DNA from: Bacillota bacterium | GTDB taxonomy: Bacteria; Bacillota; Negativicutes; CTSoil-072 | Assembly: GCA_017889545.1 (NCBI GenBank) | Contig: JAGFZV010000006.1 | Span: 1-64,000 of the forward strand | Length of the DNA: 64,000 nucleotides | Direction of reading: 5' to 3' | Shown: piece by piece, positions 25,459 to 55,486 of the stretch | Layout of the letters: each line of letters opens with the position of its first letter | Numbering within the stretch: the stretch's first letter is position 1 | Made by a program: the position numbers and the translations under genes | The notes under the pieces: model-generated | What the model was told of the DNA's origin: nothing | Database searches by the model: none | What the model saw: the letters and a program-made list of their open reading frames with translations, nothing else

Positions 25459-26217
25459 TTATAGTAAACTTGTTTTCATATGAGCCAAGGAACCGCGCAA
25501 GCGGAAAAGTGCTTTGGTGTGTAATTGAGAAATACGCGCCTCCGACAAATGGAGTATCAAACTGATCTCTTTTAAAGTTAATTCCTCGTAATAATAAAGT
25601 GAAATAACAGTTCGTTCTTTTTCGGGCAATTTACTAATTGAATGTGCCAAAGTAGTTTTTACTTCTTGTTCTTCAGTCAATTGCAAAGGCCCGGGTGTTT
25701 GGTGAGGTAAAACTGTTGACTGTACGAATTCGTCTAAAGAAATGACTGTGCACGCATTGAGTTGGTTGATTAACGCTCGCAATTCCGCAGGATTCAAATA
25801 CAGAGCAGCTCCAATTTCATCGTCAGTCGCTGAACGTCCTAATTGATTCTCCAGTTTACCTAGTGTTTCTTCAAAGGCTCGCGCTTTTTGACGCAATGAC
25901 GTCGGAATCCAATCCTGAGCACGGATAGCATCTAAAATAGAACCTCTAATTCTAGTGGCTGCATAGGTTTCAAATTTTACTCCTCTTTCGATATCAAATC
26001 GCTCAATAGCATTAAGTAAACCAAAAAAACCATTATTGATTAAATCATCTTTATCGACGTGGTGAGGCAATCCAATGGCAATACGGCCAGCTACAATTCT
26101 AACAAGCGGCAAATAATATTCGATTAACTTTTCTTTCAAATCCATATTGTTGGTCTGCCGATATTGATACCATAAAACACTCGGGTCTAATTCCATGCAT
26201 TCTGTTTTTTCCATCAT
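25459..26217 (-). CDS. fliA: RNA polymerase sigma factor for flagellar genes (FliA/SigD, sigma-28)
   Basis: A 252-residue sigma-70 family factor of the FliA/WhiG type. Region 2 contains DLINNGFFGLLNAIERFD (residues 58-75) and GVKFETYAATRIRGSILDAI; region 3 has SLRQKARAFEETLGKLENQL; region 4 ends with LTLKEISLILHLSEARISQL. It directs late flagellar and chemotaxis promoters. Start codons ATG ATG at 26217/26214 lack a strong ribosome binding site. An anti-sigma gene (flgM) is not in the window. Position near the end of the operon means that the factor is made only after the hook-basal-body genes are transcribed. Confidence 0.95.
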   Translation of the reverse strand: MMEKTECMELDPSVLWYQYRQTNNMDLKEKLIEYYLPLVRIVAGRIAIGLPHHVDKDDLINNGFFGLLNAIERFDIERGVKFETYAATRIRGSILDAIRAQDWIPTSLRQKARAFEETLGKLENQLGRSATDDEIGAALYLNPAELRALINQLNACTVISLDEFVQSTVLPHQTPGPLQLTEEQEVKTTLAHSISKLPEKERTVISLYYYEELTLKEISLILHLSEARISQLHTKALFRLRGSLAHMKTSLL

Positions 26218-54741: not shown

Positions 54742-55155
54742 TCATTTCCCTTCCCTAATAGCTGATTTGAGGTTCGAAAAATAACGACTCAATTGGTGCG
54801 CGATTGCATTATAATAAATTGTATTTTTAGCTATATTTGCCATTTCGGCATCAATATCTACATTATTTCCATCGATACGCATTGTATTTTCACTCGAAGT
54901 AAAAATGGTGGGAGTCGTCCCGATTGTGCCGCCATTGCCTGCAAAATGTTGAACATTTGTCGATGTTAACGAAAGTTTATTCTTTTTCTCCAATGCCTGT
55001 GCCAGAACTCCTTCAAATTCAACATCGCTGCGTTTAAAACCAGGCGTATTAACATTAGCAATATTATTGCTAATGACTTGGTTACGTAGAGCAGATGTAC
55101 CCAACGCTTTTTCCATGACCTTTTGATAGGAAGAAGAAACGACAGTATCCAGCAT
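54742..55155 (-). CDS. flgB: Proximal rod protein FlgB
   Basis: A 137-residue rod protein: SYQKVMEKALGTSALRNQVI, NNIANVNTPGFKRSDVEFEG, and a C-terminal NNVDIDAEMANIAKNTIYY. First gene of the motility operon. The ATG at 55155 has AAGGTG upstream. Its 5' region contains a promoter, a c-di-GMP riboswitch and a terminator, so expression of the operon head depends on whether transcription passes the terminator. Confidence 0.96.
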   Translation of the reverse strand: MLDTVVSSSYQKVMEKALGTSALRNQVISNNIANVNTPGFKRSDVEFEGVLAQALEKKNKLSLTSTNVQHFAGNGGTIGTTPTIFTSSENTMRIDGNNVDIDAEMANIAKNTIYYNAIAHQLSRYFSNLKSAIREGK

Positions 55156-55277
55156 GAAATCACCTTCGCCTTCGTCGTAATATAAGTGGTATATTGGTAT
55201 ATGCAACAATGTTTTCTAATTCTACAAAGTTTTAGAAACTCCTTGCTTATAAATGCCTTGGCTATAATATAATTTCA

Positions 55278-55316
55278 AAAATCATCAGGCGCTATACTAA
55301 ATAAAATAGCACCTGG
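55278..55316 (-). terminator. Riboswitch-controlled terminator ahead of flgB
   Basis: On the minus strand CAGGTGCTAT (55306-55315) pairs with ATAGCGCCTG (55286-55295), 10 pairs with one G-U, loop of 10, then ATGATTTTT. It lies about 120 bases before flgB. Its 5' arm (GCCAGGTGC, 55309-55317) is complementary to an upstream segment GCGCCGGC (55329-55336), giving a mutually exclusive antiterminator. Confidence 0.8.
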
Positions 55317-55354
55317 CTCTTCATAAATGCCGGCGCAAAACTACGCTTTATTAA

Positions 55355-55432
55355 GCGGCAACCTGGCAATCGTAGACAATCGTCTTTAGATCCATAGCTT
55401 TGCGTCCTTACCTTTCGATAAGTTTGCCCAAT
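55355..55432 (-). promoter_or_regulatory. Cyclic-di-GMP-I (GEMM-I) riboswitch of the flagellar operon
   Basis: Minus strand: GGGCAAAC, stem CUUAUC-GAAA-GGUAAG with GAAA tetraloop, the invariant GGACGCAAAGCUA, a second stem containing the receptor-like UCUAAAG...UACGA, and the closing GCCAGGUUGCC. These are the conserved features of the GEMM-I aptamer, in the right order and spacing. It is followed by a terminator at 55278-55316. In Clostridioides difficile the same class precedes flgB and turns it off when c-di-GMP is high; here the polarity cannot be read with certainty (see findings). Confidence 0.92.
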
Positions 55433-55457
55433 ATTCTAGTAGAAAATATTGATTATA

Positions 55458-55486
55458 ATTTAACCATCAGCAAGAGAAATTGTCAA
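55458..55486 (-). promoter_or_regulatory. Sigma-A type promoter of the flagellar operon
   Basis: Minus-strand consensus TTGACA (55481-55486), 17-base spacer, TTAAAT (55458-55463); a TATAAT lies 6 bases further but with 23-base spacing. Transcription would start near 55450, about 20 bases before the aptamer. The box is typical of sigma-A, not of the TAAA/GCCGATAA sigma-28 type, consistent with an early operon. Confidence 0.7.

Follow-up and report, generated by a model that had tools for sequence, protein, structure and literature searches.

The leader of a large flagellar and chemotaxis gene cluster in this genome is a genuine c-di-GMP-I riboswitch, ordinary in kind and carrying one unusual strand. 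It is probably a transcriptional OFF switch, like the Cd1 riboswitch (Cdi-1-3) on the flgB operon of Clostridioides difficile, for which OFF behavior has been established experimentally (PMC9262584; PMC6366702). The argument for this polarity is carried by comparison with relatives of the leader, the folding numbers being soft. The unusual part is an extra fourth strand, termed D, placed behind an expression platform that other members of the bacterial class share.

Aptamer, candidate promoter and flagellar cluster

A scan of the whole window, i.e., the complete stretch of 64,000 nucleotides that was analyzed, gave c-di-GMP-I as its sole Rfam match. The model RF01051 matched positions 55438-55354 of the minus strand with 77.8 bits (gathering score 35; E 1.4e-13), along its full length (1-87 of 87) and with standard pairs at 21 of 21 modelled pairs. 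This bears out the GEMM-I aptamer claimed in an earlier note on this DNA; passing such a covariance-model check has no bearing on polarity. The aptamer residue equivalent to Vc2 G20 is likewise a G; an A there favors cGAMP, and c-di-GMP rather than cGAMP is therefore the expected ligand, judging from this residue. A crystal structure of Vc2 G20A with cGAMP is cited in PMC6274999.

Downstream of the aptamer, a co-oriented flagellar and chemotaxis cluster (25459-55155, minus strand) extends from flgB to a sigma-70-family factor, as delimited by Pfam on selected genes and the list of open reading frames. Its first gene is flgB (54742-55155, ATG at 55155; Pfam PF00460), and the genes identified by Pfam, all on the minus strand, are flgB, flgC, fliE, fliF, fliG, fliH, fliI, fliK, flgD, flgE, flhB, flhA, cheB, cheA and the sigma factor (25459-26217), which is fliA-like by position. 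Upstream of the riboswitch lies codY. The RF01051 match and the Pfam-checked genes together confirm that a c-di-GMP-I riboswitch stands ahead of a flagellar cluster. The aptamer had further been said to head the whole motility operon; it does lie upstream of the co-oriented cluster, but a single transcript is only putative. A candidate sigma-70-type promoter, TTGACA and TAAATT separated by 18 nt (55457-55486, minus strand), matches the consensus, in a search that found as many promoters as the mean of shuffled sequences. A TATAAT overlaps its TAAATT, 3 nt further on.

Architecture of the expression platform

All elements of the platform lie on the minus strand. Strand A (GCCAGGTTGC/GCCAGGUUGC; 55358-55367) is the 3' strand of the base of aptamer helix P3 and the proposed antiterminator arm of the ligand-free RNA. 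It is followed by a small hairpin, Px (CGCUUAAUAAAGCG; 55344-55357), which is common to the platform subfamily, and by strand B (GCGCCGGC; 55329-55336), which is complementary to A and at the same time forms the 5' arm of a hairpin with strand C (GCCAGGTGC/GCCAGGUGC; 55309-55317). The earlier note had placed A, B and C at these positions and had claimed that B can pair with either A or C; both statements held. The A:B duplex amounts to -8.0 to -8.8 kcal/mol, and a bare match of A to the platform is common by chance (788 of 5000 shuffles).

The hairpin B.C (55336-55309) has a stability of -12.2 kcal/mol with its flanks, an 11-nt loop and one bulge. Directly 3' of it lies a U-rich tail, TATTTTATTT/UAUUUUAUUU (55308-55299), which the earlier note had missed and which is proposed here as termination zone T1. 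This tail is interrupted by an A and scores 3.17, within the range of 0.9-5.0 found for relatives. B.C with its tail has a d'Aubenton-Carafa score of -21, which is under the cut-off; several relatives also fall short of that cut-off.

A second helix could also oppose the aptamer. The strand GUAGUUUUGCG (55334-55344), just upstream of B and overlapping it, forms an 11-pair match with CGCAAAGCUAU in the aptamer core (55404-55394), and this helix is part of the lowest-energy fold computed for the ligand-free RNA up to the end of B. It is a possible second anti-aptamer helix; the pairing is absent from the aligned relatives.

Relatives point to B.C as the terminator

Five sites of the genome, including the one in the window, have a common platform. 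It runs from A (UGCCAGGUUGCCG) through a small hairpin to B (GGCACCGGC or a close variant) and C (GGUGC or a close variant), and it ends in a U-rich tail. The same-platform relatives are four paralogs in the genome and 14 loci in the class; for example, two class relatives read GCACC...GGUGCUAUAUUUUUA (L205) and AGCACC...GGUGCUCUAUUUUUAUUUU (L165). When the window was aligned with 20 platforms of the same type, B.C fell on the terminator hairpin, with C in line with its 3' arm, and the tail UAUUUUAUUU fell on the U-tracts.

Across 18 relatives, with the window left out, the hairpins B.C and Px covary. Of their cells, 88.8% were paired (88% for Px by itself), whereas slid controls reached 32-49%; changes on both sides occurred in 25 cells, compared with 8.1 after shuffling (0 of 500). 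The A.B pairing displayed no covariation in this pair counting because A is nearly invariant. A covariance model built from the same 18 relatives, which were picked by hand for similarity, matched the left-out window with 45 bits (E 1.1e-9), a score to which Px and the aptamer strand, being shared, contribute in part. The model also recognizes such platforms in 49 out of 151 genomes from the class.

Read from these alignments, B.C is the likely terminator by descent and A.B the corresponding antiterminator, which is the usual layout of an OFF switch. The earlier claim that B.C is itself an antiterminator runs counter to the alignment, which puts B.C on the relatives' terminator. A direct repeat flanking its own complement had moreover been read as a three-state switch. 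This arrangement is indeed present, but it is not special; any OFF switch of this type has it, since B has to be complementary to A as well as to C.

The additional strand D

Strand D (AUAGCGCCUG; 55286-55295) combines with C and the first part of the tail into a hairpin of 10 pairs between CAGGTGCTAT (55315-55306) and ATAGCGCCTG (55295-55286), with a stability of -15.2 kcal/mol. When the 48 nt after C were shuffled with dinucleotides preserved, a partner for C as good as D arose in 2 of 5000 cases. When the downstream partner of C was assessed in the same way across 20 leaders, it was equalled in 0 of 1000 shuffles for the window and in 59-942 of 1000 for the 19 relatives; a D strand above chance was found in none of these 19. 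The C.D hairpin is a real feature and not a product of chance.

Its function is another matter. The earlier note had called this hairpin a terminator, and the 10 pairs exist and exceed chance, but a run of five T starts only 4 nt beyond the stem (ATGATTTTTG), so that the terminator role is an interpretation. The corresponding five-U run (55277-55281) is a possible weak second termination zone, T2. The tail of C.D is poor, opening with AUGA and scoring 1.28, below both the tail of B.C and the best riboswitch terminators of this genome (3.0-5.5). C.D may have been acquired recently, or it may serve as another terminator. Possible roles for D include a weak second terminator, a recent change of polarity and a structure formed only after read-through.

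Polarity of the switch

In the proposed OFF mechanism, B would pair with aptamer strand A or with the neighboring aptamer core when ligand is absent, delaying the B.C hairpin such that polymerase would pass the U-rich tail and continue into flgB. When c-di-GMP is present, A would be locked in the aptamer and B would pair with C; B.C and the tail UAUUUUAUUU would then stop transcription, so that flagella would be repressed at high c-di-GMP. D would pair anew with C once polymerase is past, acting as a weak backup terminator or having no effect on polarity. We infer actual termination at B.C, as well as a response of the switch in the cell.

Equilibrium folding was compared between free RNA and RNA in which the aptamer was held and its ligand-contacting residues were blocked, the range for free RNA depending on the assumed 5' end. 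For a transcript ending at the C stem, the computed probability of B.C rises from 0.27-0.68 to 0.97 upon holding the aptamer, and for a transcript reaching the end of D, that of C.D rises from 0.29-0.77 to 0.85-0.87. Both values shift in the OFF direction. However, paralogs of the OFF type exhibited no ligand effect at equilibrium, their terminator forming with or without ligand; therefore, thermodynamics alone does not decide polarity. A coarse cotranscriptional simulation, in which one helix was misindexed, did not reproduce the switch. With the aptamer held, it stayed caught in a helix between B and the tail GCCG that uses ligand-contacting C residues, and the simulation is not counted as evidence for OFF.

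Two competing terminators, B.C at T1 and C.D at T2, could instead render the leader leaky or only slightly sensitive to ligand. The two hairpins are present and have C in common, and there is a precedent in riboswitch Bc1 of Bacillus thuringiensis, where the response to ligand is masked by T2, the second of two terminators spaced by 28 bp (PMC11218506). Like Bc1, the window has a c-di-GMP-I riboswitch with two successive terminators, here as candidates. The Bc1 terminators, however, are described as separate sequences with no shared strand, whereas the window hairpins share C and are mutually exclusive. The tail at T2 is also weak, and a retained aptamer would be useless in such a leader, leaving this explanation unlikely.

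The earlier note had proposed an ON switch, in which C.D is the terminator and a ligand-locked aptamer frees B to hold C; such a switch would represent an inversion of polarity through the gain of D. The order A, B, C, D (x, x', x, x') is that of a classical attenuator, and C.D surpasses B.C in stability (-15.2 against -12.2 kcal/mol) and exceeds chance in shuffles. In the coarse simulation without ligand, moreover, B.C persisted once formed and seldom gave way to C.D. Nevertheless, such a switch needs C.D to drop when the aptamer is constrained, and in the partition-function comparison described above it rises. In addition, conversion of B.C to C.D has an estimated barrier of 6.5 kcal/mol and a half-time of 0.03-0.13 s, which makes B.C a poor lasting antiterminator; polymerase needs an estimated ~0.3 s for ~14 nt at 50 nt/s. 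Together with the poor tail of C.D and the homology of B.C to the relatives' terminators, these results argue against the ON reading, which we regard as improbable. Equally doubtful is the evolutionary form of the idea, namely that an ancestral OFF platform became an ON switch (or a three-state one, with two terminators sharing one strand) when D was gained, so that the flagellar operon of this lineage is activated by c-di-GMP. If D does change polarity, the leader would show one added strand inverting a riboswitch.

Control without termination, through RNA stability or through a promoter downstream of the leader that bypasses the switch, is very improbable: the best-scoring leader hairpin fails the d'Aubenton-Carafa cut-off and the ~120 nt between C.D and flgB leave room for another promoter, but hairpin and U-rich tail are kept over the subfamily.

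Relation to known riboswitches

The proposed OFF switch resembles Cd1 in aptamer class, in target operon and in proposed logic, with an antiterminator built from the 3' strand of the aptamer and the 5' arm of the terminator. It differs in belonging to another bacterial class and in possessing the extra strand D. A review warns that riboswitch polarity is not transferable between species without a test (PMC6366702). Platforms of the same type in this genome and class (for example, C26:41894, C23:297003, L165, L187 and L205) share with the window the order A, Px, B, C and the U-rich tail; in contrast to the window, they precede other genes and have no D above chance. The pilM riboswitch of Geobacter metallireducens (cGAMP, ON) and 11-12 paralogs in the present genome likewise use a GEMM-I aptamer to control termination, but there the aptamer strand is part of the terminator, giving ON. 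A pilM-type ON platform was considered for the window and rejected, as the aptamer 3' strand is not a terminator arm and the best terminator starts 31 nt after the start of A.

Within the library searched, no publication dealt with this leader or with riboswitches of this kind from Negativicutes. Among the best 30 flgB matches in class relatives, none had a c-di-GMP-I aptamer. A scan of GTDB contigs for flgB returned only distant loci, two of which, both from Bacillaceae, carry the aptamer: in a Bacillus MAG (L088) and in Neobacillus soli (L093), a c-di-GMP-I riboswitch directly precedes flgB. In N. soli, pairing between the 5' arm of the terminator and the aptamer strand reaches -11.6, an OFF layout; in the Bacillus MAG, this pairing is weak, at -4.7. 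With no aptamer at the best flgB loci of class relatives and two Bacillaceae loci possessing it, the association of c-di-GMP-I with flgB appears scattered. The leader would nonetheless provide a second bacterial class in which a flagellar operon is probably under the control of a class I c-di-GMP riboswitch.

Other c-di-GMP-I riboswitches in the genome and class

The genome (3.27 Mb) contains 25 c-di-GMP-I aptamers, the platforms of which follow at least two layouts. At 11-12 sites, the aptamer strand CUGCCAG doubles as the 5' arm of a strong terminator, pairing with a CUGGCAG that runs into Us. As the terminator incorporates the aptamer strand and excludes the aptamer, ON behavior is predicted for these sites, as for pilM of Geobacter. 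Where the terminator lies wholly downstream and its 5' arm is complementary to the aptamer strand, OFF behavior is predicted, as for Cd1. Automatic sorting over genome and class, a rough procedure that applied energy thresholds to 127 sites before duplicate removal, found both layouts to be numerous.

Several sites depart from these layouts or carry features of their own. At L034 and L040 (C31:108587 and C31:137090), the aptamer strand recurs as the 5' arm of the terminator (UUGCCAGG). This arm could pair with UUGGCAA, the 5' strand of the aptamer, which may amount to another kind of antiterminator layout. In the class relative L165, the U-tract CUCUAUUUUUA is followed, past the terminator, by its full complement UAAAAAUAGAG, and the resulting hairpin could sequester the tail. 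L031 and L024 (C31:224048 and C13:15) are near-duplicate pairs of leader and gene, each with a riboswitch, and the genes encode short proteins of ~90 aa (MDKRNI...RECNQIPFAI...). Finally, five of the 25 aptamers (C27:5713, C8:28160, C42:3032, C8:13169 and C8:15984) have A at the position of Vc2 G20. This change is tied to cGAMP binding (GEMM-Ib), and cGAMP or mixed sensing is thus possible in this genome.
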